From NCBI RefSeq assembly GCF_019263805.1, contig NZ_CP079195.1, positions 375,501-439,500 on the forward strand: a DNA stretch of 64,000 bases, given 5' to 3'. Source of the DNA: Polaribacter sp. NJDZ03. GTDB lineage: Bacteria > Bacteroidota > Bacteroidia > Flavobacteriales > Flavobacteriaceae. The notes below the pieces were generated by a model. It did no database searches and was not told where the DNA came from. It worked only from the letters and a program-made list of their open reading frames with translations. A program made the position numbers and the translations under genes. This document shows positions 18,465 to 36,022 of this stretch, piece by piece; the stretch's first letter is position 1, and every line of letters begins with the position of its first letter.

Positions 18465-19481
18465 ATGAATGATTTTTTTGAGAAAATTAAAGAGTTGCAA
18501 GACGAAAGCATTAGATCTAAGCACGAGCAACTAGTTAATGGAGTTATTAATGCTATTAACGAAAAAATTGTTAAAAAAGGCGACAAACTTCCTTCTATAA
18601 ATAAAATGGTAAGTGAAATTGGTTTTGCTAGAAAAACAATTGTAAAAGCTTACGAAGATTTAAAAAATAGAGGTATTGTAGAATCTAAAAACTTTAAAGG
18701 GTATTATGTAGCCAACGTAAATACTAAATCTCAATTAAAGGTTGCTTTGTTATTGTTTGCTTTTCAATCTTTTCATGAAGATTTTTACAATACATTTAGA
18801 AAATCTTTAGGTAAAAATTATCAAATAGATATTTTCTTTCATCATAATAATGCAGCTATTTTTAAAAATATATTAGAGACTATAAATGGGAAATATGGTA
18901 TGTATGTAATTGCACCAATACCCAGTAAAGAATCTGCTGTTTTAATAGAACAATTTCCTTCTGAAAAGACATTAATTGTAGATAGATTTATTGACATGCC
19001 AAGCGAGTATTCTTACATTTCTCAAGAATTTGAACTTTCTACATATCATAAGTTAGAGGAGATGCATAGTAGGATTTTAAAGTATGATAAAGTAGTTCTT
19101 TTTTATAGAGATGATTCAGATTATCCGGTAGGAATAAAAAAAGGATTTAATAAGTTTATTAAAGATTATAATATAAAAGGATCTGTACAGAAGACTTATA
19201 AACAAGGAAGTATTAAGTTAAATACATTGTATTTTTTTATTAGTGATTCTAACCTATGGCAAGTGCTAAAAGATTGCAAAGATTTAAATTTTAAAGTTGG
19301 TAAAGACATTGGTATTTTAACCCATAATGATGCCGATTTTAAAGAAATTATTTTTGATGGAATTACAACTATTTCTGCAGATTTTAAACAGATGGCTCTA
19401 GAAGCAGCTAGTTTTGTAAAGCACAGAACTACGGTGCATAAAATTATTCCTTTTAATATAAAAAGAATAGATTCTCTATAG
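18465..19481 (+). CDS. GntR regulator with LacI/PBP1-like sensor domain
   Basis: A 338-residue regulator. Residues 1-75 are a GntR winged helix (KGDKLPSINKMVSEIGFARKTIVKAYEDLKNRG). Residues 80-338 look like a periplasmic-binding-protein/LacI-type sensor (LKVALLLFAF, HEDFYNTFRKSLG, YVIAPIP, DIGILTHND), a design used in Bacteroidetes and in AraR for sensing sugars. It precedes the SusC/SusD locus on the same strand, so it is likely its regulator, with a small carbohydrate or its product as effector. The target sites are not known; see the palindromes at 19627-19664 and 19846-19862. Confidence 0.88.
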   Translation: MNDFFEKIKELQDESIRSKHEQLVNGVINAINEKIVKKGDKLPSINKMVSEIGFARKTIVKAYEDLKNRGIVESKNFKGYYVANVNTKSQLKVALLLFAFQSFHEDFYNTFRKSLGKNYQIDIFFHHNNAAIFKNILETINGKYGMYVIAPIPSKESAVLIEQFPSEKTLIVDRFIDMPSEYSYISQEFELSTYHKLEEMHSRILKYDKVVLFYRDDSDYPVGIKKGFNKFIKDYNIKGSVQKTYKQGSIKLNTLYFFISDSNLWQVLKDCKDLNFKVGKDIGILTHNDADFKEIIFDGITTISADFKQMALEAASFVKHRTTVHKIIPFNIKRIDSL

Positions 19482-19626
19482 TTACTTGCTTATCTTTTAA
19501 TTGATTATAATTTGTCTAATTCTTACCTAATAAGTAGTGTTCTTTTTTTAAATCCCGCGATAGCGGAAACCTAAAATACTTTTCTTCTAATGTTCTTTTG
19601 CCCAATCTGCATTGGGTAAAATTTAT

Positions 19627-19664
19627 CTGTATACCTATTTTAAAATTTATTTACTTGTATACAG
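19627..19664. promoter_or_regulatory. Paired GTATAC palindromes
   Basis: CTGTATAC (19627-19634) and GTATACAG (19657-19664) are inverted copies 22 bp apart, each carrying the self-complementary GTATAC. They are plausible regulator half-sites upstream of susC, or a hairpin. No direct evidence of binding. Confidence 0.35.
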
Positions 19665-19746
19665 GAATACATTTTTCTAATTTTCTATAATTAGATTTAG
19701 CCTCGGCAATCCTTCCTTGTATTGTACTACCATTCATAAAAGTCAT
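19651..19746 (-). other. Possible 31-residue small ORF or gene remnant
   Basis: Minus strand ATG at 19746, TAA at 19651. The peptide starts MTFMNGSTIQG and ends LEKCIPVYK; it reads like real protein (charged helix AEAKSNYRKLEK) rather than AT-rich noise. No family was recognised, there is an in-frame stop directly upstream, and it overlaps one of the GTATAC palindromes. It could be a small gene or the tail of a deleted one. Confidence 0.25.
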
Positions 19747-19841
19747 AATTTATGTTAATATAGTGTGTCTGTTATATTTAATATCAATAATATATTTAAA
19801 ACCTTAAATTTTACGATAAACTCAGTTTATAAGCTAAAAAC

Positions 19842-19871
19842 TTGCGTATAAGAAATTTATACATATATTTG
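19842..19871 (+). promoter_or_regulatory. Promoter of susC
   Basis: TTG at 19842-19844, 19-bp spacer, TATATTTG at 19864-19871: exact Bacteroidetes consensus. Within the spacer is GTATAA-GAAAT-TTATAC (19846-19862), a perfect 6-bp inverted repeat that may be a regulator site. The 5' leader would be about 115 nt. Confidence 0.78.
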
Positions 19872-19993
19872 CAAGTAGCATAGAGTATCACAGTTTGTGT
19901 TTTTTATGAAAAAGTAGCAGTAAAAAATCATAAAAACAATTGACTTTAACGCAAAATTGTGTTTTAACTAACATTAACTTAAATTTTAATTTT

Positions 19994-22900
19994 ATGAATG
20001 AAAAATTATTAAAAAAACTATTCTACACAGCCATATTTCTAGTTGGTTTTGTAGTAAATGCTCAAACTTCTTCTGTAAGTGGAGTTGTTACAGACGGAGA
20101 AGGTCCGCTTCCTGGGGTTAATATTATAATTAAAGGAACAACATTAGGGATTACTTCTGATTTTGATGGAAATTTTACTTTAGATAAAGTAAGTAAAAAA
20201 GATGTGTTAGTATTTAGTTATTTAGGTTTTAAGGCAAAAGAAGTGATTTTTACAGGTCAGAAAACTTTAAACGTTGCTATGGAAGAAGATGCAGCTTCTT
20301 TAGACGAAGTTGTAATTGTTGGTTACGGTACTTCTAGTAAAAGAGAAGCAACAAGTGCGGTTTCTACTATTAAAGGAAAAGATATTGTTAATACAGTTGC
20401 GGGTAACCCAACAAATGCATTACAAGGTAAATTGTCTGGTATACAGGTAGAGGCACCAGGTGGGCAACCAGGAGGATCGCCAAACGTATTTATTAGAGGT
20501 GTTAACTCATTAAGTAATGCAAGTCCTTTATATATTGTAGATGGTTTATTTGTTACAAATATGGATTATGTAAACCCTGCAGATATAGAAGATATTTCTG
20601 TACTAAAGGATGCAGCAGCAGCAGCAATCTATGGTTCTAGAGCTGCAAATGGAGTTATATTGATTAAAACAAATCATGGTAGAAAGAATAGAGAATTAGA
20701 GGTTACTTTTTCTGCTAGAGTTGGTTTTGATACACCAAGTAAAAAATTAGATTTTATTAATGGAGAACAGTATACAGATTATTTAAACCAACGTTTTACA
20801 AATGAAGGTTCTGCAACGCAGGTTACTTACAATGGTGTAAATACAGATTGGCAAGAAGAGTCTTTAAAGTCTGGTATTGTAGAGGATTATGGTGTTTCTA
20901 TTTCTGGTGGTGGAGAGAACTCTTCTTATTTTGGATCATTAAACTATTTTAACCAAGACGGAATTTTAATAGGTTCTGGTTTTAGAAGATTAAATGCAAG
21001 GTTTAATAGTCAACATCAATTTAATAAAGTAAAAATCACACATTCTTTAGGTTTAGCAGAAGGAAAATTACAAAACAATAACTGGTATGGTTTTGATGCA
21101 GTTACGGCACCAACAATTGCTTTAAAAAATGATAACTTAGATGGTGGTTTTGATGGACCAACAGAAGATATTCATGGTCCTGGTGGATTAAATCAATTTG
21201 GTTTGGCTTCATTAGAAGACAATTTAGAAACTACAAGAACTTTATTTACGAGTTTAAAATTAGATTATGAAATAAACGATAATTTTACTGCTTCTGTAAA
21301 TTTTGGAGCAGATTATAGAACAAGACATAGCTACCAATTTACACCAACTTTTTTAATGACAAACCCTGTTGCAAGTGGTAACAGTATAGATCCTGTAAGA
21401 AATGTAAATGAGTTAAATGATTTAACAAATTTTAATAGAGATAATATAAATTTATCTTTTGAGCCTACAATAAATTATAACAAGACTTTTAATGATGTAC
21501 ATAAATTAGATGTTGTTTTAGGGCATACTCGTTTTGTAGAATCGCAAAGTAGTAATGGTTTGTATGGAGAAAATACGGGAGATAATTTAATTAGAGTTCC
21601 AGAAAAATTAAACACACTTACACAAGCTTTGGGTAATAATTCTAAAGCCGTATTGTTGTCTTATTTTGGTAGAGTAAATTATGGTTACGATGGTAAATAT
21701 TTATTTTCTGCAACTGTAAGAAGAGATGCGTCTTCTAGATTTGGAAAGGCAAATAGAGTTGGTTATTTCCCTGCCTTTTCTGGAGCATGGAATTTAAGTA
21801 GTGAAGAATTTTGGAAATCGGAAACAATTAACTTCTTTAAATTAAGAGCTTCTTATGGAGAGTTAGGTTCTTACCCAGATGCAGCTTACCCAACACAAGG
21901 AGTATATGGTAATAGTTCTGCTACAAGTTTTGGTGGTGGTCTTGCAAATGGTTTAGCACAAACAGTTTTAGTTGATGAAAACTTAGTTTGGGAAACGACA
22001 AAAACATTTGATGTTGGTTTTGATATGTCTTTGTTTGATAGTAAAGTAAAGGTAACTGCAGATTACTATTCTAAAAACGTAGAAGATGCTATTGTACCAA
22101 TTAATGTACCATCTACAGCAGGAGTTAGTCAGGCAGTTATTAGAAACGCAGGGTCTTTAGTAAACAATGGTTTCGAATTTGATGTAGCTTACAATAAATC
22201 TGAAGGAGATTTTACATACACAATTGGTACTAATTTTTCATTCAACCTTAAAAACCAAGCAAAAAACATTCCAGCAACAATTCAAGGACCTGCAATAGAT
22301 GAAGATTTAAGAGTTGTTAATGAAACAAGAGAAAATGCACCAGTGGGCGCGTTTTATGGTTGGGTTGTAGAAGATAAAGTAGATCCATTAACAGGTAACT
22401 TTGTAAGAGTAGATACAAATGGAGATTCTATAGTTGATGAAAATGATATTACTCAAATAGGGGACCCTACACCAGATTTTACATACGGTCTTAACTTTAA
22501 AGCAAATTATAAAGAATTCGATTTTTCTTTAGCTTTTAATGGAGTACAAGGAAATGAAATTTACAATGTTGGTCGTTATTACAATATCTTATGGCAAGAT
22601 GGTGGTAAATTATCGGAAGTTTTAAACGCTTGGACCCCAACAAACACAGATACTAATATTCCTGTAGCTACTGTAAATGATGCAGCGGGTAATAGAGCTC
22701 CTTCATCTTTCTTTGTAGAAGATGGTTCTTATTTTAGATTAAAAAACTTAGAAGTTGGTTATAATTTTAATACAGAATCTAATCCTGGTTTAGCTTGGGT
22801 AAAAGACTTAAGAGTTTCTTTTAATGTTCAAAATGTTTTTGTTTTAACAAAATATAGTGGTTATGATCCAGATGTAGCATCTGCTAACGGAGGGCGTTCT

Positions 22901-23023
22901 AATATCAATTCGGGAGTTCCTGGTGTAAGAAATTCAGTAAACCCACTTTTATCAAGAGGTTTAGATTTAAGAGCGTATCCAAATGCACGTACTTTTAGTG
23001 TTGGGTTAAAAGCAACTTTCTAA
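19994..23023 (+). CDS. SusC/RagA-type TonB-dependent outer-membrane transporter
   Basis: 1009 residues from the ATG at 19994 (MNEKLLKKLF). An upstream in-frame TTG at 19940 is rejected since a normal signal peptide (ending near FVVNAQTSS) starts at the ATG. Domains: carboxypeptidase-regulatory-like N-terminal domain (about 27-100; VSGVVTDGEGPLPGVNIIIKGT), TonB box/plug starting DEVVIVGYGTSSKREATSAVS, plug core IRGVNSLSNASPLYIVDG, and a 22-strand barrel ending NARTFSVGLKATF. It imports a ligand across the outer membrane with its lipoprotein partner SusD, whose gene begins 18 bp later. Confidence 0.96.
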   Translation: MNEKLLKKLFYTAIFLVGFVVNAQTSSVSGVVTDGEGPLPGVNIIIKGTTLGITSDFDGNFTLDKVSKKDVLVFSYLGFKAKEVIFTGQKTLNVAMEEDAASLDEVVIVGYGTSSKREATSAVSTIKGKDIVNTVAGNPTNALQGKLSGIQVEAPGGQPGGSPNVFIRGVNSLSNASPLYIVDGLFVTNMDYVNPADIEDISVLKDAAAAAIYGSRAANGVILIKTNHGRKNRELEVTFSARVGFDTPSKKLDFINGEQYTDYLNQRFTNEGSATQVTYNGVNTDWQEESLKSGIVEDYGVSISGGGENSSYFGSLNYFNQDGILIGSGFRRLNARFNSQHQFNKVKITHSLGLAEGKLQNNNWYGFDAVTAPTIALKNDNLDGGFDGPTEDIHGPGGLNQFGLASLEDNLETTRTLFTSLKLDYEINDNFTASVNFGADYRTRHSYQFTPTFLMTNPVASGNSIDPVRNVNELNDLTNFNRDNINLSFEPTINYNKTFNDVHKLDVVLGHTRFVESQSSNGLYGENTGDNLIRVPEKLNTLTQALGNNSKAVLLSYFGRVNYGYDGKYLFSATVRRDASSRFGKANRVGYFPAFSGAWNLSSEEFWKSETINFFKLRASYGELGSYPDAAYPTQGVYGNSSATSFGGGLANGLAQTVLVDENLVWETTKTFDVGFDMSLFDSKVKVTADYYSKNVEDAIVPINVPSTAGVSQAVIRNAGSLVNNGFEFDVAYNKSEGDFTYTIGTNFSFNLKNQAKNIPATIQGPAIDEDLRVVNETRENAPVGAFYGWVVEDKVDPLTGNFVRVDTNGDSIVDENDITQIGDPTPDFTYGLNFKANYKEFDFSLAFNGVQGNEIYNVGRYYNILWQDGGKLSEVLNAWTPTNTDTNIPVATVNDAAGNRAPSSFFVEDGSYFRLKNLEVGYNFNTESNPGLAWVKDLRVSFNVQNVFVLTKYSGYDPDVASANGGRSNINSGVPGVRNSVNPLLSRGLDLRAYPNARTFSVGLKATF

Positions 23024-23041
23024 TAAATAAAAAATAATAAA

Positions 23042-24619
23042 ATGAAAAAACTAAATAAAACAAAATCATTTTTAAGTTTGGCTATAGTTGCAACAATTGT
23101 TTCTCTTATAGGTTGTTCTGAAGATATTTTGGATCAAAAAAACAATAATGCAATTTCTACAGGAAACTTTGGGGCAACCTTAGAACAGGTAGAATCTGCA
23201 GTAAACGGAGCTTTTCATCCAATAACGGGTACTTTTTTCTGGGGAAGAATAGCACATGCAGGTGCATTGTTACGTTCAGATGAGTTTAATATAATTCCGA
23301 ATGGAGGTAACACAGTAATGTCTACTTTTCAGGGAGGACCAGGAAACGGACGATGGGCAACAGAGCCTTGGCAAGAATTGTACAAGTCTATTGCTAGGTG
23401 TAATAATATAATAATTAATACTCCAGATACATTTTCTAGTACAGATATTAATCCGTTATTAGGACAAGCATATTTTTTAAGAGCTTTCGATTATTGGTAC
23501 TTAGTAAACCTTTATGGTAATGTGCCTTTAATTACAGATTTGCCAGATTTTGATAATCTATTAGTAGATCAAGCAGCTCCAGCAGATGTTTGGGCACAAA
23601 TTATTGAAGATTTAAAAATGGCAGAAACAATGTTGCCAGCAACTTGGACAGGAGATAATACGGGTAGACCAACTTCTGGAGCAGCAACTGCTTTAAAAGG
23701 AAAAAGTTACCTATTTATGAAAGAATGGGAAAAAGCGCATACTACTTTAAGTACTTTGGTAGGTAAGTATAGTTTATTACCTGCTTCAGAATTTGGCGAT
23801 AATTTTGGTGTAAATAATGAAAACAATGCAGAATCTGTTTTCGAGTTACAATTCTTAGGGCAATCTAACTTTGTTTGGGGTACAGATATTCCTCAAACTG
23901 GTACAATGGGTAATTATCATATTGATTATGCACCGCCATCTAAATCGCCAGATTTTGGTCACATTGTAAACCCTTGGTTAAAGAAATTATACGAAGACAA
24001 TGGCGATACATTTAGAAGAAATGAAACTTTAGCGTATAATTATCCTGGAGCTACTGGTTACGGTGGTATTGCTTATGCTACAGATTTTGTAGATGATATT
24101 GCAGTAGCAAATGATAACAGTGTAGAACCTATATTTTCTAAAAAATATACAGGTATGGACTTAGGTACAAGAGGTGAAGTAGATTTTCTTGGGACTAATG
24201 TTGGTAACAACTGGAGAATAATTAGATATTCTGATGTATTATTAATGCTTGCAGAATCTTTAAATGAAGATGGTCAAACAGGTAATGCAATTATAAACCT
24301 TAACTTGGTAAGACAAAGACCTGGTTCTGGTTTAGCACTTACAACTGCAATTTCTCAAACAGATGTTAGACAAGCAATTATAGACGAAAGAGCTATGGAA
24401 CTTGCAGGAGAAGGACACCGTTTCTTTGATTTGGTTCGTTGGGGGTTGGCAGAAGATTATTTAGGATCAACGTCTAAACACGTTACAAACGGATCGCAAA
24501 CATATCACCCTAAATCTATAAGTGGCGGTACCTTTCAGTCAGGTAAAAATGAACTTGTTTGGATACCAATATCAGAAAGAGGAACAAACCCAAATTTGAA
24601 TCAAAATTCTGGGTATTAA
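23042..24619 (+). CDS. SusD/RagB-type nutrient-binding lipoprotein
   Basis: A 525-residue lipoprotein with lipobox Cys in LIGCSEDILDQ. The SusD plan is clear: TPR-like helices with QELYKSIARCNNIIINT and AYFLRAFDYWYLVNLYGNVPLIT, and the C-terminal RagB part with NWRIIRYSDVLLMLAESLNE and RAMELAGEGHRFFDLVRWG. It forms the lid of the SusC channel and binds the substrate. SusD pairs usually handle glycans, but also small glycosides; the specificity is not readable here. Confidence 0.96.
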   Translation: MKKLNKTKSFLSLAIVATIVSLIGCSEDILDQKNNNAISTGNFGATLEQVESAVNGAFHPITGTFFWGRIAHAGALLRSDEFNIIPNGGNTVMSTFQGGPGNGRWATEPWQELYKSIARCNNIIINTPDTFSSTDINPLLGQAYFLRAFDYWYLVNLYGNVPLITDLPDFDNLLVDQAAPADVWAQIIEDLKMAETMLPATWTGDNTGRPTSGAATALKGKSYLFMKEWEKAHTTLSTLVGKYSLLPASEFGDNFGVNNENNAESVFELQFLGQSNFVWGTDIPQTGTMGNYHIDYAPPSKSPDFGHIVNPWLKKLYEDNGDTFRRNETLAYNYPGATGYGGIAYATDFVDDIAVANDNSVEPIFSKKYTGMDLGTRGEVDFLGTNVGNNWRIIRYSDVLLMLAESLNEDGQTGNAIINLNLVRQRPGSGLALTTAISQTDVRQAIIDERAMELAGEGHRFFDLVRWGLAEDYLGSTSKHVTNGSQTYHPKSISGGTFQSGKNELVWIPISERGTNPNLNQNSGY

Positions 24620-24654
24620 GATTTTTTTAAGTTGAATTATGTTAATTAAGTGAT

Positions 24655-24682: not shown

Positions 24683-24705
24683 ATTTACTAAAAACCGTAT
24701 TTATT

Positions 24706-27700
24706 TTGAAATTAAAACTACTTATTTCTAGCTTTATTTTACTGCTCTTTTTAGGATGTTCTTCCAAGAAAGAAAAGAAGACTTTTACGTATATAAATTC
24801 TTCGGAATCTAATATTACGTTTAAAAATACCATTACAGAAAATGATACCTTAAATGTTGTCAATTTTCAATATGTATATAATGGTGGAGGTGTAGGTATT
24901 GGAGATTTTAATAATGATGGTTTATCAGATGTTGTTTTTACAGGAAATCAAGTATCATCAAAAATATACTTAAATCAAAAAGATTTAAAGTTTAAAGATA
25001 TTTCTAAAGCAGCTGGTTTTACAACAAATTCTTGGGTAACAGGTGTTGCTATTGTAGATATTAATGCAGATGGATGGGATGATATTTATTTAAGTGTTGC
25101 GGGTATAAATTGTAAGAATAATTGTAATAATCTTTTATTTGTTAATCAAAAATTAAACGAAAAAGGAATTCCAACTTTTAAAGAGCAAGCAGCAGCATAT
25201 AATTTAAATGATGGTAATTACAGTCAGCAAGCTGTTTTTTTAGATTATGATTCAGACGGAGATTTAGATGTGTTTATAGCACATAATGGAAATGTAAAGT
25301 TTGATAAAAACTCTCCAGTTCCAAAACACTATATGCCTAAAAACTTAGCAGATTATTTATTAAGAAACGATAAAGTAGCAGGTGTAAATCACCCAGTTTT
25401 TACAAACGTTTCAGATACTTTAGGCATTACCTATAAAGGGTTTTCTTTAGGTGTAAACGTACAAGATCTTAACAATGATAATTTACCAGATATTTATGTT
25501 TCTAATGATTTTATTACAGAAGATTTAGTGTATTTAAATAATGGAATAGATGCAAAAACAAAAAAACATTTAGGTTTTAAAGAAGCAAATAAACAGTTTT
25601 TTAATCACCTTACATACAATGCAATGGGTGTGGATATTGCAGATATTAATAATGATGAATTACCAGATGTTATGGTGGTAGACATGTTACCACAAAGTTA
25701 CCAAAGGCAAAAAAGTATGTTGGGTTCTATGAATTATGATAAATATTTAATTTCTAAAAGAAACAATTATACGCCACAATTTATGCACAATACCTTACAA
25801 CTCCATAATGGTTTTGTAAATGATTCTATTTTAAAATCGAGTGAAATTGGTAATTACGCAGGTATTTCTTCTACAGATTGGAGTTGGGCGCCAATTTTAG
25901 CAGATTTTGATAATGATGGCGATAAAGACATGTATATTACAAACGGATATGCAAAAGACATTACAGATTTAGATTTTATCAATTATTCTAATCAGAGTAC
26001 ATTATTTGGTACAGAAGAATCTAAAAGCAAGAAATTATCAGCTTTATTAGCTAAAACACCAAGTGTTTCTATTCCTAATTATTTTTATCAAAACAATACA
26101 AGCTTAAAATTTACAGATGTTAGTACAGATTGGGTTTCCAAAGAAAATTCTTTATCAAACGGAGCAGCATACGCAGATTTTGATAATGATGGAGATTTAG
26201 ATTTGGTTGTAAATAACTTAAATCAAGAAGCTTTTTTAATAAGAAATAATACCATAGAAAATTTTCCAAAAAGCAATTATTTAAAAATTGAGCTAAAAGG
26301 AAACAAAGAAAATAAAGACGCAATTGGTGCAAAAGTCACCCTTTGGTCTCACAATAAAGTACAACAGCAATATCAATCTAAAACAAGAGGTTATTTATCA
26401 TCAGTTGAGTCAAAAATACATTTTGGGTTAAAAGATAGTTTGGTAGATTCTGTACAAGTGATTTGGCCAAGTAAAAAAGTTTCAAAAATTTACAACGTTA
26501 AATCAAATTCTATTTTAAAGGTTGATATTTCTTCAGGGAAAAATCAAGTGATAAAAGAAGAAAAGATAAATAACCTTTTTATAGCAAAACAAGAAGTGTT
26601 TTCTTTTAAACACAAAGAAAACCAGGGACACGATTTTGTTTCTCAACATTTACTAATGCGTCAATTCTCTAAGTTAGGCCCTTGTATTGCTGCTGCAAAT
26701 GTAGATAATAATATAGGTGATGAATTATTTGTTGGTAGTAGCAAAGGACAAGCGTCTACCATTTGGAAACAAAACAAACAAGGTGTTTTTGAAATTCAGC
26801 AAGAGTTAGATTCAGATTTTGAAGATACAAATGCTGTTTTTGTTGATGTAGATAATGACAAGGATTTAGATTTATATGTTGCCAGTGGAGGATCTGAATT
26901 TTCTAAAGGATCTAAGTTTCTACAAGACAGAATTTATATTAATGATGGTAAAGGGCATTTTACAAGAAAAGAAAACGGATTACCAAATACACTAGAAATT
27001 AGCTCTTGTGTAAAACCTTTCGATTTTGATAAAGATGGAGATGTAGACTTTTTTGTTGGTAGTAGAATGATAAAGGGAAGCTATCCATTAGCACCTAAAA
27101 GTCAGTTGTTATTAAATGATAATGGTGTCTTTACTGATACAATTAATAAAGATCTACAAAGTTTAGGAATGATTACGGATGCCGTTTGGGCGGATATAAA
27201 TAAAGATGGTTGGTTCGATTTAGTGGTGGTTGGAGATTGGATGCCCATTACTGTTTTTATCAATAAAAAAGGAAAATTAGAAAAATCTACTTCTAATTGG
27301 TTAAATACTTTAGATGAAAATATAGATACTTCTGGTTGGTGGAATACCATAAAATATGGTGATTTTGACAATGATGGAGATATCGATTTTATAGTAGGGA
27401 ACCAAGGAGAAAATGGTTTTGTAAATCCGAAGAAAAACAAGCCTGTTTGCATCTACAAACAAGATTTTGACGGAAACGGAAGTGTAGATCCAATAATGGC
27501 GCAATACTTTACAGATACTAAAAGGAGTGAAGATTTATTGCCAGTGCATACCAGAGATGATGTAATGAAACAGCTTGTAAAATTAAAGGACACCTATGTT
27601 TCTTATAAAGATTTTTCAAATACCACCTTTAACCAATTATTAAATATAAAAGATCTTGAGAAAGAGACTTTAAAAGCGGCTATTTTTTCTAGTTGTTATA

Positions 27701-28059
27701 TAGAAAATTTAGGTCAGAATTCTTTTAAAGTACACAAATTACCAGCTATTTGCCAAACAGCACCTATAAATGATATTTTGGCAAAAGATTTTAATAACGA
27801 TGGTTTTTTAGATGCCTTGCTAGTAGGTAATGATAAAAATACTGAAACTATTTACGGACATTCAGATGCTTTAACGGGTGTCTTTTTAGAAGGAAGTAAA
27901 ACAGGTTTTATTGCTAAGAAATCAAATGAATCTGGGTTTTATGTACCAGAACAATCAAATCATATTGTAGAAATACAGACTATAAATAAAGAGAAATTAA
28001 TTATTGCAACACAGAACAACGAGAAAGCTAAAACGTTTAAAATCAATTTAGAACAATAA
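24706..28059 (+). CDS. FG-GAP/VCBS and ASPIC-UnbV lipoprotein
   Basis: 1117 residues, with a TTG start (MKLKLLISSF...FLGCSS). Signal peptide and lipobox place it in the outer envelope. It contains many FG-GAP/VCBS blade motifs of the form D-F/I-N-x-D-G-x-x-D (DFNNDGLSDVVF, DINADGWDDIYL, DYDSDGDLDVFI), which fold as a calcium-binding beta-propeller. A central ASPIC/UnbV domain (about residues 540-610; GAKVTLWSHNK) is followed by further propeller repeats. Proteins of this kind are common beside SusC/SusD pairs, but their role is unclear; surface binding or ligand capture is a guess. The next gene starts 1 bp after its stop. Confidence 0.85.
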   Translation: MKLKLLISSFILLLFLGCSSKKEKKTFTYINSSESNITFKNTITENDTLNVVNFQYVYNGGGVGIGDFNNDGLSDVVFTGNQVSSKIYLNQKDLKFKDISKAAGFTTNSWVTGVAIVDINADGWDDIYLSVAGINCKNNCNNLLFVNQKLNEKGIPTFKEQAAAYNLNDGNYSQQAVFLDYDSDGDLDVFIAHNGNVKFDKNSPVPKHYMPKNLADYLLRNDKVAGVNHPVFTNVSDTLGITYKGFSLGVNVQDLNNDNLPDIYVSNDFITEDLVYLNNGIDAKTKKHLGFKEANKQFFNHLTYNAMGVDIADINNDELPDVMVVDMLPQSYQRQKSMLGSMNYDKYLISKRNNYTPQFMHNTLQLHNGFVNDSILKSSEIGNYAGISSTDWSWAPILADFDNDGDKDMYITNGYAKDITDLDFINYSNQSTLFGTEESKSKKLSALLAKTPSVSIPNYFYQNNTSLKFTDVSTDWVSKENSLSNGAAYADFDNDGDLDLVVNNLNQEAFLIRNNTIENFPKSNYLKIELKGNKENKDAIGAKVTLWSHNKVQQQYQSKTRGYLSSVESKIHFGLKDSLVDSVQVIWPSKKVSKIYNVKSNSILKVDISSGKNQVIKEEKINNLFIAKQEVFSFKHKENQGHDFVSQHLLMRQFSKLGPCIAAANVDNNIGDELFVGSSKGQASTIWKQNKQGVFEIQQELDSDFEDTNAVFVDVDNDKDLDLYVASGGSEFSKGSKFLQDRIYINDGKGHFTRKENGLPNTLEISSCVKPFDFDKDGDVDFFVGSRMIKGSYPLAPKSQLLLNDNGVFTDTINKDLQSLGMITDAVWADINKDGWFDLVVVGDWMPITVFINKKGKLEKSTSNWLNTLDENIDTSGWWNTIKYGDFDNDGDIDFIVGNQGENGFVNPKKNKPVCIYKQDFDGNGSVDPIMAQYFTDTKRSEDLLPVHTRDDVMKQLVKLKDTYVSYKDFSNTTFNQLLNIKDLEKETLKAAIFSSCYIENLGQNSFKVHKLPAICQTAPINDILAKDFNNDGFLDALLVGNDKNTETIYGHSDALTGVFLEGSKTGFIAKKSNESGFYVPEQSNHIVEIQTINKEKLIIATQNNEKAKTFKINLEQ

Positions 28060-28060: not shown

Positions 28061-29830
28061 ATGATTAAAGAAAATTATACAATTTCAGAAAAGGACATTA
28101 CAATAGTTGGAGGTTCAGAGAACTTTTCATCAAACTTAAAAGTAGTATCAAACGAAAATAATATTACCATTTTCGATATAAATATAACCGGAGAAAAAGC
28201 AGAGATACCAGCGCCCATTACTATAAAATGGAAAATACCAGCACATAATGTAAAAGGAGTGTGGAAACCAACCACCGATTTTGCAAAGAGAATTCAGGCA
28301 GATTGGGAATTAGACCACATGGAATCTCGTATTTCTATTGATGCGCCAATAATAAATCTTTTTGGTCATGATGATAGCAATCGGTTAACTTTTGCATGTT
28401 CTAACGCCATTAATAAGTTAGAGTTAAATGCAAGATATAGAGAAGAAGATGATTATTTCTATTGCTTTATCAACCTATTTACAGAAACAAATTATGAGGT
28501 AAAAGACTTTAATATTCAATTAAGAATAGATACTAGAAATGTTCATTTTTCAGAAACGCTTAAAGATGTTTCTAAATGGTGGGAATCTTTTGACAACTTA
28601 CAACCAACCTCTGTACCAGAAAGTGCATTAGTGCCTTTGTATTCTACTTGGTATAATTTTCATCAAAATTTAGATGAAGACAAGTTAGAAGAAGAATGTA
28701 AACTTGCTTATGATTTAGGGTATAAAGCCATTATTGTAGATGACGGTTGGCAAACAAAAGATGATAATAGAGGTTATGATTATACAGGAGATTGGGAACC
28801 AGACAGACTAGATAAGACGAAAGAATTTGTAGCTAAAATTCATAAAATAGGAATGAAAGTTGGTTTTTGGTATTCGGTTCCTTTTTGCGGACATAAATCA
28901 AAAGCTTACAAACGTTTTAAGGGGAAATTCTTAACGGAAAACCATAGATGGGCACCCGTTTTTGATCCAAGATATCCAGATGTGAGAGCATATTTAATCA
29001 ATATTTATAAATCTGCTTTAATAGAGTGGGATTTAGATGGTTTTAAACTTGATTTTATTGATGATTTTAAACATTATCCAGAGACAAAAGAGAAGACACC
29101 AGAAATGGATTATCATTCTATAAATGAAGCTGTAGATCGTTTGTTAACGGATGTTATTACAACTTTAAAGGCAATTAAGGCGGATGTTTTTATAGAGTTT
29201 AGACAAAAATACGTAGGTCCTGCAATGCGTAAATATGGTAATATGTTTAGAGCTTTCGATTGTCCTGGAGATGCTACGATGAACAGAATAAGAATTGCAG
29301 ATATTAAAATGTTAGCAGGTAATACGGCTGTACATTCAGATATGATTACTTGGCATAAAGAAGAAACTGTAGAGGTTGCTGCTTTGCAATTGGTAAATAC
29401 GTTGTTTGGTGTACCGCAAATTTCAATTTTATTAAAAGAAGCACCCCAAAGTCATTTAAGAATGATTAAATTCTACACCAATTATTGGAATGAAAATAAG
29501 GTGTTATTTACAGAAGGGAAGTTTACCCCTTTTAACCCTTTGTTAAACTATCCGCAGAAACAAATTATAAATGCTGATAAAATGATTTTGGGTATTTACG
29601 ACAACTACGTTTCAGAAATAAATGAGCAAGTAGAAAACTTAGATATCTTAAATGCAAAATTGAGTGAAACAATTATTCTTAAATCAAAATTTGATTTAGG
29701 AGAATTTACAGCAACAATTTTTAATTGTGAAGGAGAAGTGGTAAAAACAACTGTTTTTAAATTAAATAAAGGAATTTCTAGTTTAGAAGCTCCTGCTTGT
29801 GGATTGATTCAATTAACTAAAAAAATATAA
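28061..29830 (+). CDS. Cytoplasmic clan GH-D glycoside hydrolase (alpha-galactosidase-like)
   Basis: 589 residues and no signal peptide, so cytoplasmic. An N-terminal beta-sandwich (about 1-190) precedes a TIM barrel with the GH27/GH36 marks: D227-D-G-W-Q after strand 2, the likely nucleophile D331 in DLDGFKLDF, and a possible acid/base Asp in FRAFDCPGD (D400 or D404). This clan acts on alpha-galactosides. Position after a Sus pair and before a sodium symporter and glycerol enzymes suggests a galactosylglycerol substrate (floridoside) cleaved to galactose and glycerol. The clan call is firm; the substrate is inference. The gene starts 1 bp after the preceding stop and ends 4 bp before the symporter. 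Confidence 0.82.
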   Translation: MIKENYTISEKDITIVGGSENFSSNLKVVSNENNITIFDINITGEKAEIPAPITIKWKIPAHNVKGVWKPTTDFAKRIQADWELDHMESRISIDAPIINLFGHDDSNRLTFACSNAINKLELNARYREEDDYFYCFINLFTETNYEVKDFNIQLRIDTRNVHFSETLKDVSKWWESFDNLQPTSVPESALVPLYSTWYNFHQNLDEDKLEEECKLAYDLGYKAIIVDDGWQTKDDNRGYDYTGDWEPDRLDKTKEFVAKIHKIGMKVGFWYSVPFCGHKSKAYKRFKGKFLTENHRWAPVFDPRYPDVRAYLINIYKSALIEWDLDGFKLDFIDDFKHYPETKEKTPEMDYHSINEAVDRLLTDVITTLKAIKADVFIEFRQKYVGPAMRKYGNMFRAFDCPGDATMNRIRIADIKMLAGNTAVHSDMITWHKEETVEVAALQLVNTLFGVPQISILLKEAPQSHLRMIKFYTNYWNENKVLFTEGKFTPFNPLLNYPQKQIINADKMILGIYDNYVSEINEQVENLDILNAKLSETIILKSKFDLGEFTATIFNCEGEVVKTTVFKLNKGISSLEAPACGLIQLTKKI

Positions 29831-29834
29831 AAAA

Positions 29835-31490
29835 ATGGATATACTTTCTATTGCTTCGTTTTTAGGTTTTACCTTATTGGTAGCCTTTATTGCTTGGTAT
29901 GCAACTCGTAAAACAGACGAAAAATCTGCAGATGGTTATTATTTAGGCGGTAGAAGTTTAGGGGCAATAACCATTGCAGGCTCCTTATTATTAACCAATC
30001 TTTCGGCAGAACAAATTGTTGGTTTAAACGGACAATCTTTTGCGCAAGGAGTTTTAGTAATGGCGTGGGAAACCTTAGCAGCTATTTCTATGATTGTAAC
30101 AGCCATTTATTTATTACCAAAATACATGCGCTCTGGTATAACAACAATTCCACAATTTGTACAGGAACGTTTTGATGGACAAACAAAATCAATTTTATCA
30201 ATTCTGTTTTTGGTTGCTTTTGGTGTTGTATTGTTACCAACCATTTTATACTCTGGTTCTTTGGCTTTTAGTACCATGTTCGATTTACCAGAAACGTTGG
30301 GGATATCGCAAGCTAGCGTTATTTGGGTTTGTGTTTTATCTATTGGAATTATTGGTTCTATTTATGCCATTTTTGGAGGTTTAAAAGCGGTTGCAGTTTC
30401 CGATTTAGTAAACGCAATTGGGTTGTTAATAGGTGGACTTTTAATTCCTGTTTTTGGTTTAATGCTTATTGGTGATGGAAGTATTTCTGATGGATTTACA
30501 GAATTATGGACTCAGAACCCAGAGAAGTTTAATGCAAAAGGAGAGATTGATTCTTTTATTCCTTTTAGTACCATTTTTACAGGAATGATGATTGCGCAGA
30601 TGTATTATTGGGGAACCAATCAATCTATTTTACAACGTGTTTTTGGCGCTAAAAGTTTAGCAGAAGGACAAAAAGGAATGATTTTAGCAGGTTTTGTAAA
30701 GTTTTTAATTCCAATTATTGTAGTACTTCCAGGTATTATTGCGTGGCATATTTTTGGTAGTGACTTGGCAAATCCAGATCAAGCATATCCTGCTTTGGTT
30801 AAAAAAGTATTGCCAGCAGCATTTTTAGGATTCTTTGCAGCCGTTTTATTTGGAGCCGTTTTAAGTTCATTTAATAGCTTGTTAAATAGTAGTTCTACAT
30901 TATTTGGAGTCGATTTATACCGTCAATACTTTAATAAAAATGCTTCTGAATTAAAAATGGTAAAAGCTGGGAAATTCTTTGGTCTTTTATTAGCAATTAT
31001 TTCTATGAGTATTGCACCCTTTATAGCAAATGCACCAGACGGATTATTCTCTTACATACAGGAATCTTTAGGAAGTTTAAGTGTGCCTATTTTGGCTGTT
31101 GTAGCGGTTGGTATGGCAACTAAAAAAGTACCAGCGTTGGCTGCAAAAATTGTATTAACTATTGGTGTATTAATGTATTTAATAAGTCAGTTTGTATTGA
31201 GTCCTCATTTTATAGATGCCGCTTTATCAGAAGCCGCCATAAATGGTATTACAAATGCAAAAGAGTTAAGTATTATTAAGGCAAAAGCCTATCCTCATTT
31301 CTTGCATATTATGGGAATTCTGTTTGTAATTAATGTTGCGTTTATGCTTATTATGGGAAAATTATACCCTAGTAAAAAAGTGTACACACCAAAAATTACA
31401 AAAGAAATAGATATTACTCCTTGGAAATATGCAAAAGTTATAGGCGTTGCAATTACAATTTTAGTATTAAGTACTTACTTAATTTTTTAG
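29835..31490 (+). CDS. SSS-family sodium/solute symporter
   Basis: A 551-residue inner-membrane protein with about 13-14 hydrophobic segments, of the SLC5/SSS type with the LeuT fold. Family marks are GGRSLGAITIAGSLLLTNLSAEQIVGLNG near the start, IYAIFGGLKAVAVSDL, and the FGAVLSSFNSLLNSSSTLFGVDLYR region with sodium-site residues. SglT-like members take up sugars and glycosides. Placed between the hydrolase and the glycerol kinase fusion, it should bring the intact glycoside or its sugar into the cytoplasm. Confidence 0.93.
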   Translation: MDILSIASFLGFTLLVAFIAWYATRKTDEKSADGYYLGGRSLGAITIAGSLLLTNLSAEQIVGLNGQSFAQGVLVMAWETLAAISMIVTAIYLLPKYMRSGITTIPQFVQERFDGQTKSILSILFLVAFGVVLLPTILYSGSLAFSTMFDLPETLGISQASVIWVCVLSIGIIGSIYAIFGGLKAVAVSDLVNAIGLLIGGLLIPVFGLMLIGDGSISDGFTELWTQNPEKFNAKGEIDSFIPFSTIFTGMMIAQMYYWGTNQSILQRVFGAKSLAEGQKGMILAGFVKFLIPIIVVLPGIIAWHIFGSDLANPDQAYPALVKKVLPAAFLGFFAAVLFGAVLSSFNSLLNSSSTLFGVDLYRQYFNKNASELKMVKAGKFFGLLLAIISMSIAPFIANAPDGLFSYIQESLGSLSVPILAVVAVGMATKKVPALAAKIVLTIGVLMYLISQFVLSPHFIDAALSEAAINGITNAKELSIIKAKAYPHFLHIMGILFVINVAFMLIMGKLYPSKKVYTPKITKEIDITPWKYAKVIGVAITILVLSTYLIF

Positions 31491-31515
31491 AAAATAACAT
31501 AAGATTTTTATAATC

Positions 31516-34500
31516 ATGGAAAAAAAATATATAGTTGCTTTCGATCAAGGAACAACAAGCACCAGAACCATCATTTTTGATCATCAAGGAGAAATAGTAG
31601 CAATTTCTCAGAAAGAATTAAAACAACATTATCCGCAATCTGGTTGGGTAGAGCATAATGCAGAAGATATTTATACCGATCAATTAGAAACTTTTTATAA
31701 AGTATTAGAAGATTCTAAAATTAATCCACAAGAAATTGTTTCAATTGGTATTACAAATCAAAGAGAAACTACGGTTGTCTGGGATCGTAAAACAGGTAAA
31801 CCAATACATAATGCTATTGTTTGGTTAGACAAACGAACATCTGAAATTTGTGAAGATTTAAAGCACAAAGGACTTACAGATTACGTAAAAGAAAATACAG
31901 GTTTGGTTATTGATGCCTATTTTTCTGGAACAAAATTAAAATGGATTTTAGACAATGTTGACGGAGCAAGAGAAAAAGCAAATGCAGGCGAATTGTGTTT
32001 TGGTACCATAGATAGTTGGTTAATTTATAAATTTACCAATGGTGAGAAACATGTAACAGACCATACAAACGCTTCGAGAACGTTAATTTATAATATTAAG
32101 GAATTAAAATGGGATGAAACCCTTCTAAAAGCATTAGACATTCCTAAAAGTGTATTGCCAAGTGTACAACAATCGTCATCAGACTTTGGTTCGGTAACGT
32201 ATAAAGATATTAAAATTCCTATTTACGGAGTTGCAGGAGACCAACAAGCATCGTTGTTTGGACAAGGAGGTTTTAAATCTGGTATCGCTAAAAACACGTA
32301 CGGAACGGGTTGTTTTATGTTGTTAAATATAGGAAAAGAGCAAGTGGTTTCTCATAATGGCTTATTAACTACACTTACCTGTAGTTTAGAAAATGAGCCT
32401 GTAAATTATGCATTAGAAGGAAGCATTTTTGTAGGAGGTGCTTCTATACAATGGTTACGAGATAGCATGCAGCTTATTGAAAAAGCATCCGATACAGAAG
32501 AAATTTGTAAAAGTATTCCGCCTTTAAAAGACATTTATGTGGTTCCTGCTTTCGCAGGATTAGGAGCACCTTATTGGGATGCCAAAGCAAAAGGAAGTAT
32601 TTATGGTATGACGTTAGATACGGGTAGAAAAGAAATTATAAAAGCAACAGTAGAGGCATTAGCATACCAAACAAAAGATGTGATTGATGCGATGATTCAA
32701 GATTCTGGTAAAGAAATGAGAACCTTAAAAGTAGATGGAGGCGCAAGTGACAACAATTACTTAATGCAATTTCAGTCCGATCTTTTAAATGTAGATGTAG
32801 ACAGACCAAAAATGATAGAAGTTACCGCTTTTGGTGCTGCTTTATTGGCGGGTATTAAAGCTGGTTTTTGGGTAAAAGAAAATATTGAAGATTTAAGAAA
32901 AGTAGAAACTGTTTTTAAACCAGAGATGAAACCCAAACTAAGAAATAAAAAGTACAAAGGTTGGTTAAATGCAGTTGATAAAACAAAAACAACCAATACT
33001 AGTAAGGTTAAAAATAAGCCGCTTCGTTTTTCTGTTTTAGATAGAAGTAAACAGCTTAAAAAAATAACCTCTAAAAAGTTCGATATTATTGTAATTGGTG
33101 GAGGTGTAACAGGAGCAGGTATTGCTTTAGATGCATCTTCTAGAGGTTTAAGTGTTTGTGTAATAGAGAAGAATGATTTTGCTTCGGGTACCAGTAATAA
33201 ATCAACAAAACTAATTCACGGAGGGTTAAGGTATTTAAAACAATTAGAAATTGGGTTGGTAAGAGAATCTGGTTCCGAAAGAGCAATTGTACATAAATTA
33301 GCACCTCATTTGGTTTTACCAGAAAAAATGCTGTTACCTTTAATTGAAGGAGGAACTTATGGTAAAATGATGACTTCTATTGGTTTAAAAGTTTATGATA
33401 TGTTGGCCAATGTTGGTGGAGATGATAAACGTAGAATGCTAAACAAAGAAGATACTTTTAAGAAAGAACCTTTGTTAGATGATAGTACCGTTTTAGGAAG
33501 TGGTTTTTATGCAGAATACAGAACAGATGATGCAAGATTAACAATTGAGTTACTTAAAAAAGCATCAGAATTTGGAGCGACTGTTATTAATTATTGTGAA
33601 ATGGAATCGATCATTTATGATAACAATAATAAAATTGAAAGCCTAAATTGTATCGATCATAACACGGGTAAGAAAATAAATTTAACGGCAAGAAATTATG
33701 TATCTGCTGCGGGCCCTTGGGTAGATAAAATTAGAAAGAAAGATAATTCTATCAATCATAAGTACTTACATTTAACCAAAGGTGTACATATTGTTTTTCC
33801 TAATAAAAAATTACCGGTACAACAATCTGTGTATTTTGATGTAGAAGATGGTAGAATGATTTTTGCAATTCCAAGAGGAAGATGTACTTATGTGGGTACT
33901 ACAGATACCAATTATAACGGAGATTTAAATAGAGTAGTAGCAACAAAAGAAGATGTTGACTATTTAATAAAAGCAGCAAATAATACGTTTCCAACCGTAA
34001 ATTTAACCATTGATGATGTAGAATCTAATTGGGCAGGTTTACGACCTTTAATTCATGAAGAGTCGAAAGATCCATCAGAATTATCTAGAAAAGATGAGAT
34101 TTTTGTTTCAGACAGCGGTTTAATTTCTATTGCTGGTGGTAAGTTAACGGGCTATAGAAAAATGGCGCACAGAGTTATTGATGTCATTTTAAAAACGCTT
34201 CCAAAGAAAAGAAAAAAGAGATTAAAAAAAACAGATACAGAACATATTTCTTTGGTAACGCCAACGTTACATTCTTCTTATGAAGTAGAACTTTATCAAG
34301 AAGAAGTAGAAAATGATTTGCTAAAGAAAGGTGTTTCAGATCCGTATCATGCTTGGTATTTAACAACTACTTTTGGTAAAAAGGCAGATTTAATTGTTGC
34401 TAAAATGGATTTCTTTATAAACGGAACTCCATTAGAAAACTTAATTAGAGCAGAACTTTGGTATTGTATAAACTATGAAATGACCAATAGTTTAGCAGAT

Positions 34501-34686
34501 TTCTTTGTACGAAGAACAGGAAGATTGTATTTTAACATACCAAGTATTGCTGTCTATTTTGATATTATTTTAAAAGATTTTATAAAATATTTAGACTGGG
34601 ACGATAAAAGAATCCTTTTAGAGAAAGAGAAAATGGAATTGTTGTTAACGGATGCTACAACCTATTATTCAGAAGAGTTTAAATAA
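31516..34686 (+). CDS. Fused glycerol kinase and glycerol-3-phosphate dehydrogenase
   Basis: 1056 residues in one unbroken frame. Residues 1-496 are a full FGGY glycerol kinase: phosphate loop DQGTTSTR (D10), NQRETTVVW, and catalytic D242 in GVAGDQQASLFG. A short linker of about 25 residues (KTKTTNTSKVKNK) follows. Residues about 505-1056 are a full GlpD-type FAD-dependent glycerol-3-phosphate dehydrogenase: F522-D with IIVIGGGVTGAGIALDA, TKLIHGGLRYLKQ, and ISIAGGKLTGYR. Together they turn glycerol into DHAP, with G3P passed between domains and electrons probably going to quinone. No frameshift or internal stop. No glpF lies beside it, so glycerol is more likely made inside the cell than imported. 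Confidence 0.95.
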   Translation: MEKKYIVAFDQGTTSTRTIIFDHQGEIVAISQKELKQHYPQSGWVEHNAEDIYTDQLETFYKVLEDSKINPQEIVSIGITNQRETTVVWDRKTGKPIHNAIVWLDKRTSEICEDLKHKGLTDYVKENTGLVIDAYFSGTKLKWILDNVDGAREKANAGELCFGTIDSWLIYKFTNGEKHVTDHTNASRTLIYNIKELKWDETLLKALDIPKSVLPSVQQSSSDFGSVTYKDIKIPIYGVAGDQQASLFGQGGFKSGIAKNTYGTGCFMLLNIGKEQVVSHNGLLTTLTCSLENEPVNYALEGSIFVGGASIQWLRDSMQLIEKASDTEEICKSIPPLKDIYVVPAFAGLGAPYWDAKAKGSIYGMTLDTGRKEIIKATVEALAYQTKDVIDAMIQDSGKEMRTLKVDGGASDNNYLMQFQSDLLNVDVDRPKMIEVTAFGAALLAGIKAGFWVKENIEDLRKVETVFKPEMKPKLRNKKYKGWLNAVDKTKTTNTSKVKNKPLRFSVLDRSKQLKKITSKKFDIIVIGGGVTGAGIALDASSRGLSVCVIEKNDFASGTSNKSTKLIHGGLRYLKQLEIGLVRESGSERAIVHKLAPHLVLPEKMLLPLIEGGTYGKMMTSIGLKVYDMLANVGGDDKRRMLNKEDTFKKEPLLDDSTVLGSGFYAEYRTDDARLTIELLKKASEFGATVINYCEMESIIYDNNNKIESLNCIDHNTGKKINLTARNYVSAAGPWVDKIRKKDNSINHKYLHLTKGVHIVFPNKKLPVQQSVYFDVEDGRMIFAIPRGRCTYVGTTDTNYNGDLNRVVATKEDVDYLIKAANNTFPTVNLTIDDVESNWAGLRPLIHEESKDPSELSRKDEIFVSDSGLISIAGGKLTGYRKMAHRVIDVILKTLPKKRKKRLKKTDTEHISLVTPTLHSSYEVELYQEEVENDLLKKGVSDPYHAWYLTTTFGKKADLIVAKMDFFINGTPLENLIRAELWYCINYEMTNSLADFFVRRTGRLYFNIPSIAVYFDIILKDFIKYLDWDDKRILLEKEKMELLLTDATTYYSEEFK

Positions 34687-34693
34687 TTTATTT

Positions 34694-36022
34694 ATGAAAG
34701 GGAAAACATATTTATTAGTACTTATTACACTGCTACTACAAGCGTGTAAAAAGGAAGTGCTGCCAATAACCGTTACTGGCAATAATTATTTTGAGGTTGT
34801 CGATAAAATAACGGAAACAATGATTCATGATATTTTTTCGCCACCTGTTGCCAGCAGAATCTATGTATATCCAAATATTGCTGCTTATGAGGTTATTGCT
34901 CAAAAAGACAGTAATTATGTTTCCCTTTCAACAAAGATAAAATCATTAGCTGCAATTCCAAAACCAGGTAAAAATGTAAATACAAAAGTAGCTGCAATAG
35001 TGGCTTATGTTAATGTAAGTAAAGATCTTATTTTTAAAGATGATATTATTACAAAATACGCAGACAGCTTATTTACAGGTTGGAAGGACTTAAATAAAGA
35101 AGAATTTATAGCTTCAGAAAAATATGGATTGCAAGTAGCAAAGCATATTAAAGAATGGTCTGGTAAAGACAATTATAAAGAGACTAGAACATATCCTAAA
35201 TTTGAGCTTTATTCTGATGATCCATCAAGATGGCAGCCAACTCCACCAGCTTATATGGACGGAATTGAGCCTCATTGGATGAAAATAAGACCAATGTTTT
35301 TAGATTCTGTCTCTCAGTTTAAACCAAAAAGACATCCTACATTTTCTATGGATGAAGGCAGTGCGTTTTATAAAGAAGTACAAGAAGTATATACAGTTAC
35401 TAATAGAATTAGAAAAAACGGAGATACATCCGAAGAAGTAGAAATTGCAAGATTTTGGGATTGTAACCCGTATGTTACAACAAGCAAAGGGCATTTAATG
35501 ATTGCTACAAAAAAGATTACTCCTGGTGCACATTGGATTGGAATTACAAAGATTGCTTGTAAAAAAAGTAATTTTAATTTTGAAGAATCTGTATCTGCAA
35601 ACACAATAACATCAATAGGTATTTTTGATGCTTTTATAAGTTGTTGGGATGAAAAATATAGAAGTAATTTAATAAGACCAGAAACCCTTATAAATAAAAC
35701 AATAGATAAAAATTGGACGCCTTTATTGCAAACGCCTCCGTTTCCAGAATATACAAGTGGTCATTCTGTAGTTTCAGGCGCATCAGCAACTATTTTAACG
35801 GCTATTTTTGGAGAAAATTTTAGTTTTTCAGATGATACAGAATTGCCTTTTGGATTGCCTATTAGAAATTTCAACTCTTTTAATGCTGCTGCAAAAGAAG
35901 CTGCTATTAGTAGGTTGTATGGAGGTATTCATTTTAGAGCAGCTATAGATAATGGAGTAGATCAAGGTATTAATATAGGAAGACATATTTTAAAAGCAAT
36001 CCCCCATAAGCAAAAATATTAA
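34694..36022 (+). CDS. Vanadium-dependent haloperoxidase/PAP2-related lipoprotein
   Basis: 442 residues from the ATG at 34694 (MKGKTYLLVL); an in-frame ATG at 34652 overlaps the previous gene and is rejected. Signal peptide with lipobox LLLQAC. The vanadate/phosphate site of the haloperoxidase-PAP2 superfamily is complete: KYRSNLIRP (K-x6-RP), SGHS, and SRLYGGIHFRAAID (R-x5-H). Such proteins may be haloperoxidases, phosphatases or neither. It is the last gene of the locus and is followed by a strong terminator. Confidence 0.85.
   Translation: MKGKTYLLVLITLLLQACKKEVLPITVTGNNYFEVVDKITETMIHDIFSPPVASRIYVYPNIAAYEVIAQKDSNYVSLSTKIKSLAAIPKPGKNVNTKVAAIVAYVNVSKDLIFKDDIITKYADSLFTGWKDLNKEEFIASEKYGLQVAKHIKEWSGKDNYKETRTYPKFELYSDDPSRWQPTPPAYMDGIEPHWMKIRPMFLDSVSQFKPKRHPTFSMDEGSAFYKEVQEVYTVTNRIRKNGDTSEEVEIARFWDCNPYVTTSKGHLMIATKKITPGAHWIGITKIACKKSNFNFEESVSANTITSIGIFDAFISCWDEKYRSNLIRPETLINKTIDKNWTPLLQTPPFPEYTSGHSVVSGASATILTAIFGENFSFSDDTELPFGLPIRNFNSFNAAAKEAAISRLYGGIHFRAAIDNGVDQGINIGRHILKAIPHKQKY

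Follow-up and report, generated by a model that had tools for sequence, protein, structure and literature searches.

The Sus-like polysaccharide utilisation loci (PULs) of Bacteroidota share a SusC/SusD pair, a regulator of their own and a glycoside hydrolase, all encoded on one strand, and the canonical glpF-glpK-glpD operon handles glycerol by the chemistry of GlpK and GlpD. The locus analysed here, which spans positions 18465-36022 of a 64,000-nucleotide window of the Polaribacter sp. NJDZ03 genome (bases 375501-439500 of a single contig of 4,078,668 bases), has features of both systems. It differs from the Sus-like PULs, in which a polymer-trimming surface enzyme is common but not universal, by the lack of an exported glycoside hydrolase, none being recognised in 18465-36022 by profile and hydropathy scans, and by the presence of a glycerol kinase-dehydrogenase. 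It differs from the glp operon by the lack of GlpF, by the fusion of the two enzymes and by the presence of a hydrolase and a sugar symporter in the same run of genes. We propose, with a probability of roughly seven in ten, that this locus is an operon for the uptake and catabolism of an α-galactosyl-glycerol of some kind. Its substrate is probably small, because the scans recognised no exported hydrolase; a galactose half is suggested by the GH36 fold of its hydrolase and by the GalK and GalT genes of related loci, and a glycerol half by GlpK/GlpD.

Floridoside (2-O-α-D-galactosyl-glycerol) is a main photosynthetic product and osmolyte of red algae. The available parts of two reports give floridoside and the isofloridosides as the free α-galactosyl-glycerols of these algae (PMC5928181, PMC8509150), and the available part of a third models floridoside breakdown in Neoporphyra haitanensis as an α-galactosidase step followed by galactose-1-phosphate handling (PMC8703398). 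As far as that part goes, the model describes the alga's own turnover, whereas the present locus would belong to an outside consumer equipped for import. Among the matches listed, in a literature that lacks most subscription journals and bioRxiv, there was no published bacterial locus for floridoside uptake or catabolism. If the substrate is an α-galactosyl-glycerol, floridoside would in our judgement probably be the main physiological one, and we infer that it is the main natural substrate.

In the proposed pathway, the intact heteroside would cross the outer membrane through SusC/SusD and would be carried with Na+ into the cytoplasm by an SSS-family symporter resembling vSGLT. The unexported GH36-type enzyme would then release galactose and glycerol. 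The fused GlpK-GlpD would convert the glycerol into glycerol 3-phosphate and then dihydroxyacetone phosphate, and the galactose would be taken over by a separate GalM-GalK-GalT operon of the same genome. The GntR-type regulator, through its periplasmic-binding-protein-like domain, would sense the substrate or a product. The substrate, the direction of transport, the order of the steps and the regulation are what we infer.

The preliminary description of this DNA had assigned the hydrolase to clan GH-D and had seen no signal peptide, and both points hold. The protein exceeds the curated cutoff of Pfam Melibiase (31.1 against 27 bits), and the top fold matches of its structure model, built with 51 sequences (predicted local distance difference test, pLDDT, 91.9), are GH36 α-galactosidases. 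The model contains the N-terminal β domain, the TIM barrel and the C-terminal sheet that we take to constitute the GH36 fold. An earlier model (17 sequences, pLDDT 73, poor around 383-428) was set aside for this one, on which alone the fold search was run. W197, D227, D228, W230, K329, D331 and D400 are invariant in 51/51 aligned members, as is the DDGW segment, and the K-x-D segment that carries the nucleophile reads K329-L-D331. Asp331, which aligns with D478 of AgaA, the residue mutated in PDB 4fnu (D478A), is the probable catalytic nucleophile; the invariant D400 is a candidate acid/base lying 69 residues further on, compared with 70 between D478 and D548 of AgaA, and is placed beyond the end of the HMMER alignment. 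The 12-residue Kyte-Doolittle maximum of the N-terminus is 0.42, against 2.39-2.98 for the SusC, SusD, FG-GAP and PAP2 proteins, export being judged by this simple hydropathy scan and not by a signal-peptide predictor. A hydrophobic N-terminus is found in 0/74 of the closer relatives of the hydrolase and in 5/6 of the most distant ones. The described GH36 α-galactosidases SpAga, AgaA and AgaSK (PDB 6phw, 4fnr, 2yfn) are only about 12-14% identical to the present enzyme and measure about 720 residues, against 589 here; unlike them, the present enzyme has no hydrophobic N-terminus and has GlpK-GlpD and a SusCD pair as neighbours, and its substrate is a prediction. We predict that it is a cytoplasmic GH36-type α-galactosyl-glycerol hydrolase.

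Could the natural substrate be isofloridoside (1-O-α-galactosyl-glycerol), or a mixture of isomers, and not floridoside specifically? This narrower form of our proposal, with which it is compatible, is possible, although we consider it the less probable one. The available part of one report describes galV, a GH36 enzyme that couples galactose and glycerol to isofloridoside in the reverse direction (PMC8509150), and according to the available part of another, floridoside occurs together with both isofloridosides in Porphyra-type algae (PMC5928181). The choice of linkage isomer, and likewise the identity of the sugar half as galactose, lie beyond what a sequence can decide.

The gene company of the hydrolase, compared among relatives as the preliminary description had suggested, recurs. 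A single genome_contigs scan gave at least 490 stretches encoding a relative of the hydrolase, of which the best 80 were kept (several end at contig edges); the nearest named relative in this set, from a Polaribacter metagenome-assembled genome (L036), is 86% identical. Open reading frames (ORFs) of the same families as in the locus were found in 63 (FG-GAP), 63 (SSS), 56 (SusD), 53 (SusC) and 42 (GntR) of the 80 stretches. Since the same families recur in this way, the gene set of the locus is more than a chance assembly. With neighbours called at E 1e-20 and at least 35% identity (45% for GalE), GlpK is present in 28 stretches, GlpD in 32, GalK in 9, GalT in 5, GalE in 10 and GalM in 2, so that GlpK and/or GlpD accompany the hydrolase in 32/80, a galactose-pathway gene in 21/80, both in 11 and either in 42. 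Around weaker, more distant GH36-like matches, a small and unannotated comparison set of 12 stretches (4 of them shorter than 14 kb), glycerol genes occur in 1/12, as a GlpD-GlpK-MIP run (L148), and galactose genes in 0/12. All seven GalK proteins scanned, of the nine, passed TIGR00131, the GalT of L090 and L086 passed TIGR00209 and the GalE of L063 passed TIGR01179.

The order of these partners varies. Four of the nine GalK loci also carry GlpK or GlpD (L044, L060, L102, L110), the order being GntR-SusC-SusD-FGGAP-GlpD-GH36-GalK-GlpK in L110 and GH36-SSS-GlpD-GalK in L102 and L060; L093 reads GH36-SSS-GalK-GalT, L090 and L086 read GH36-GalK-GalT, and the GalK-GalT pair of L044 and L109 is on the opposite strand. 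GlpK-GlpD may follow SSS, precede it (Aquimarina) or flank the hydrolase, GlpD upstream and GlpK downstream of it (L107, L110). In the 32 loci the two enzymes are fused in 13, adjacent but separate in 13, and otherwise placed or represented by one alone in 6. The fusion was ruled out as a marker of the pathway, a fused GlpK-GlpD being present without the hydrolase in L179.

The window genome also encodes, at about C1:1436861-1441765, a separate GlpF-GlpK-GlpD operon, which comprises a MIP protein with the NPARD motif, GlpK, GlpD and a divergent regulator, the last named by eye; the fusion in the locus is therefore a second copy. The absence of glpF noted in the preliminary description thus applies to the locus and not to the genome. 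A further GlpD-like gene lies near 2515273. The second GlpD had two apparent stops, which suggested a pseudogene; this was ruled out, as the ORF is intact (519 residues) and the match had overrun its start. A GalM-GalK-GalT operon is found at about 2025803-2031692, accompanied by a GntR-type gene and, divergently oriented, an SSS (both by eye), its GalT being assigned by a 52-60% match to the GalT of the related loci. The earlier claim that the substrate combines an α-galactosyl and a glycerol moiety is supported by the glycerol and galactose genes of the relatives, by this redundancy of GlpK-GlpD, by the consistently non-hydrophobic N-termini of the closer relatives and by the GH36 fold.

The association extends beyond the immediate neighbourhood. 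In 149 genomes of the family, 13 encode the hydrolase at 57% identity or more; GlpK is present in 13/13 of these and in 59/136 of the others (Fisher 4e-5), and an SSS at 70% identity or more in 12/13 against 3/136 (Fisher 4e-14), both values ignoring kinship and genome size. The locus copy is the sole GlpK (E 1e-60) in G072, G019, G036, G017 and G138, whose assemblies comprise about 40-130 contigs, and one GlpK lies elsewhere in seven of the 13 genomes, the window genome having both. No NPARD-type channel was found in the same five genomes, where the nine MIP matches read NPARS or NPIRS, apart from a broken fragment in G072 with the first motif only. NPARD, presumably the sign of a glycerol facilitator, is seen in glpK-linked MIP channels of other genomes.

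The best PDB sequence match of the SSS protein is the Na+/galactose symporter vSGLT (2xq2, E 9.7e-61; also 3dh4). In the set of seven residues that we take to contact galactose in vSGLT (Q69, E88, S91, N260, Y263, K294, Q428), Q69, E88, Y263, K294 and Q428 are kept, whereas S91 is replaced by A and N260 by Q; the second SSS, beside the galactose operon, appears by eye to be more vSGLT-like. The SSS gene adjoins the hydrolase gene in many loci devoid of GlpK, and it adjoins GlpK-GlpD in L178 and L181, where the hydrolase is absent. This neighbour pattern is the one expected of an importer of the whole glycoside, and it may also be that of a carrier of glycerol or of another solute.

Several observations weigh against the proposed function. 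The sequence similarity of the hydrolase to GH36 is weak (31 bits), and a SusCD pair would be unusual for so small a solute. Neither a glycerol nor a galactose gene is present in 38/80 of the related stretches, some of which are clipped by contig ends, and the galactose loci include ten (of 21) with GalE alone (Aquimarina), possibly a chromosomal neighbour, and two in which GalM is the sole galactose gene, from the exported outgroup (L113, L114). In the two stretches where SSS adjoins GlpK-GlpD without the hydrolase, the module SSS-GlpK-GlpD stands by itself (L178) or next to a 3-keto-disaccharide hydrolase (L181), so that the role of SSS or of GlpK-GlpD may concern glycerol or other glycosides. 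In a GlpK tree of 49 rows (5/54 matched rows, L128-L132, were dropped as likely duplicates of named loci, as assumed for each row), the main clade joins 24 locus rows with six rows from genomes lacking the hydrolase (L178-L183). The locus copies fall in three places separated by moderate supports, the others being the Maribacter/Cellulophaga copies (L049, L050, L069), which group near GlpKs that in other genomes lie elsewhere, and two copies from Saprospiraceae (L107, L110). The very long branch of L145 was removed before all clade tests. A single clade of the 29 locus GlpKs was rejected against 19 others, L178-L183 among them (approximately unbiased test, p-AU 0.0026); it was not rejected against 12, without L178-L183 and L148 (p-AU 0.149), nor when the Saprospiraceae pair was also left out (27 against 12, p-AU 0.376). 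Repeated recruitment of GlpK to the locus is possible and, if established, would be stronger evidence; it is unproven, because the rejection depends on including GlpKs of hydrolase-free genomes, and the claim was withdrawn.

An alternative is that two unrelated functions share one operon, GH36 acting on ordinary α-galactosides of the melibiose or raffinose type and SSS-GlpK-GlpD scavenging glycerol. The modules of L178 and L181, the main-clade GlpKs of the six genomes without the hydrolase and the unestablished recruitment all speak for it. Nevertheless, we consider it unlikely: the link to glycerol genes is rare around distant GH36-like genes, its one instance being itself a complete GlpD-GlpK-MIP operon, the gene order around the hydrolase shifts while the same partners persist, SSS remains with the hydrolase in many loci lacking GlpK, and the genome already possesses a glp operon with its MIP channel. 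A kinase/dehydrogenase needed for free glycerol only, which the preliminary description had set against its own reading, loses ground and retains some through L178 and L181 and the recruitment that could not be shown.

Somewhat less likely still is another α-glycosyl-glycerol, such as the cyanobacterial 2-O-α-glucosylglycerol or sulfoquinovosyl-glycerol, the glycerol half of which would need the same handling. The pairing in L181 of a similar SSS and GlpK-GlpD with a 3-keto-glycoside set is in its favour, whereas the GH36 fold with its invariant DDGW, the GalK (9/80) and GalT (5/80) of the relatives and the gene run of L183 argue for galactose. In L181 (G148:C34:72000-91900, 311-12995), two AP_endonuc_2 proteins, a Nuc_H_symport carrier, a GFO/IDH/MocA oxidoreductase and the 3-keto-disaccharide hydrolase (PF06439) are encoded ahead of the SSS (75%) and the fused GlpK-GlpD, and GMC oxidoreductase and Gluconate_2-dh3 genes diverge from this run; the set is perhaps a second, oxidative route for opening a glycosyl-glycerol. 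In L183 (G144:C16:86000-101034, 8735-14890), a single run encodes an aldose epimerase, a fused GlpK-GlpD, a HAD-type phosphatase and GalE; no match to the hydrolase was found in this genome at E 1e-3, and the run may be a galactose-plus-glycerol set that works with another hydrolase or with none. Finally, the sugar head of the galactolipid digalactosyldiacylglycerol, α-Gal-β-Gal-glycerol, contains both moieties and is a most improbable substrate, as a β-galactosidase would be needed before glycerol release and the profile scans found none among the eight locus proteins.

Returning to an α-galactosyl-glycerol as the substrate, we lean, by a narrow margin, towards a wider scenario in which a GH36 lineage, after its move to the cytoplasm and its linkage to an SGLT-like importer, was joined in different hosts by whichever functions the host was missing, be it glycerol kinase/dehydrogenase, Leloir genes or the two together. 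The locus would then be the first dedicated bacterial floridoside locus to be described, a Sus-type osmolyte locus without a surface enzyme that many marine members of the Flavobacteriaceae and Saprospiraceae would carry. If so, it would account for the consumption of a large pool of dissolved red-algal carbon, and a genomic signature (SSS, SusCD, GntR and a GH36 that belongs to this clade and is not exported, with GlpK/GlpD or GalK/GalT) would make floridoside consumption traceable in genomes and metagenomes. It points to a Sus-type system for a small osmolyte instead of a polymer and names an enzyme activity that can be tested.

A diet of red-algal galactans is likely for the host. Two of the four GH16 proteins of a galactan-type cluster are both nearest in the PDB to 9ijc and 8ep4, which are named only as GH16, and then to porphyranase A. 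In one case a β-glucanase and a laminarinase are nearly level with the porphyranase (34 against 36 bits); in the other the porphyranases lead more clearly. This cluster, at about G000:C1 3752000-3791700 (L125, L126), encodes the four GH16, GH2, GH127, a mandelate-racemase-type enzyme and, as judged by eye, several sulfatases, and also a PhoD-like phosphatase that comes after an FG-GAP/ASPIC protein (3.75-3.79 Mb).

The features of the locus are collected in Table 1. The eight genes named in the preliminary description were recovered at their places on the plus strand by the ORF list and by Pfam and NCBIfam profile scans. The short spacing reported from 28059 onwards was likewise confirmed, with gaps of 1, 4 and 25 bases, the first separating the FG-GAP and hydrolase genes; SusC and SusD are adjacent.

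Table 1. Features of the Polaribacter locus (window positions)
Feature	Positions	Strand	Evidence
GntR-type regulator with periplasmic-binding-protein-like effector domain	18465..19481	+	PF00392 35.6 bits (cutoff 27); PF13377 25.3 bits, slightly below cutoff 26.5
Candidate Bacteroidota -7 promoter element TATATTTG upstream of susC	19864..19871	+	TAnnTTTG match
SusC/RagA TonB-dependent transporter	19940..23023	+	TIGR04056 780.7 bits (cutoff 368); probable start ATG 19994 (by eye)
SusD-like lipoprotein	23042..24619	+	PF07980 113.6 bits (cutoff 23.1); lipobox by eye
FG-GAP/ASPIC-UnbV lipoprotein	24706..28059	+	PF13517 201.7 bits; PF07593 67.2 bits
GH36-type hydrolase without export signal, predicted α-galactosyl-glycerol hydrolase	28061..29830	+	Pfam Melibiase 31.1 bits (cutoff 27); probable nucleophile Asp331
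SSS-family Na+ symporter, vSGLT-like, predicted inner-membrane importer of the intact glycoside	29835..31490	+	NF007790 729.5 bits (cutoff 401)
Glycerol kinase fused to a flavin adenine dinucleotide (FAD) glycerol-3-phosphate dehydrogenase/oxidase-type domain (GlpK-GlpD)	31516..34686	+	TIGR01311 697 bits (cutoff 590)
PAP2/haloperoxidase-like lipoprotein	34694..36022	+	PF01569 39.2 bits (cutoff 27.2)

In the second half of GlpK-GlpD, PF01266 and PF16901 are above cutoff, and the glycerol-3-phosphate dehydrogenase/oxidase models matched below their equivalog cutoffs. The PAP2 ORF as listed (34652-36022) overlaps the fusion, and by eye a start at 34694 is more likely. TAnnTTTG, which we take to be the Bacteroidota -7 consensus, occurs, as a raw count uncorrected for chance, in the GntR-SusC gap of 31/36 loci scanned. 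A palindrome before susC, TATAA-N5-TTATA (19847), is conserved in L036; it was ruled out as a regulator site, such sites (spacer 3-7) occurring in 2/36 loci, with 8% expected in shuffles.

Some related loci contain further genes. Between the hydrolase and SSS, 14/80 loci, Zobellia included, encode a protein of about 187 residues that resembles Mac/hexapeptide acetyltransferases (for example L053:11745-12302). In L113 and L114, a different locus type, the distant hydrolase relatives (44-45%) stand beside a protein near the 'retaining alpha-galactosidase' model NF053844 (779 bits, cutoff 800), with a sulfatase-like protein, an NhaC antiporter and a pyridoxal-phosphate enzyme as other neighbours. 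The FG-GAP/ASPIC and PAP2/haloperoxidase-like lipoproteins of the window (24706-28059 and 34694-36022) co-occur in several relatives, and the order FGGAP-FGGAP-PAP2 is found immediately upstream of the hydrolase in L052, L053, L058 and L097.

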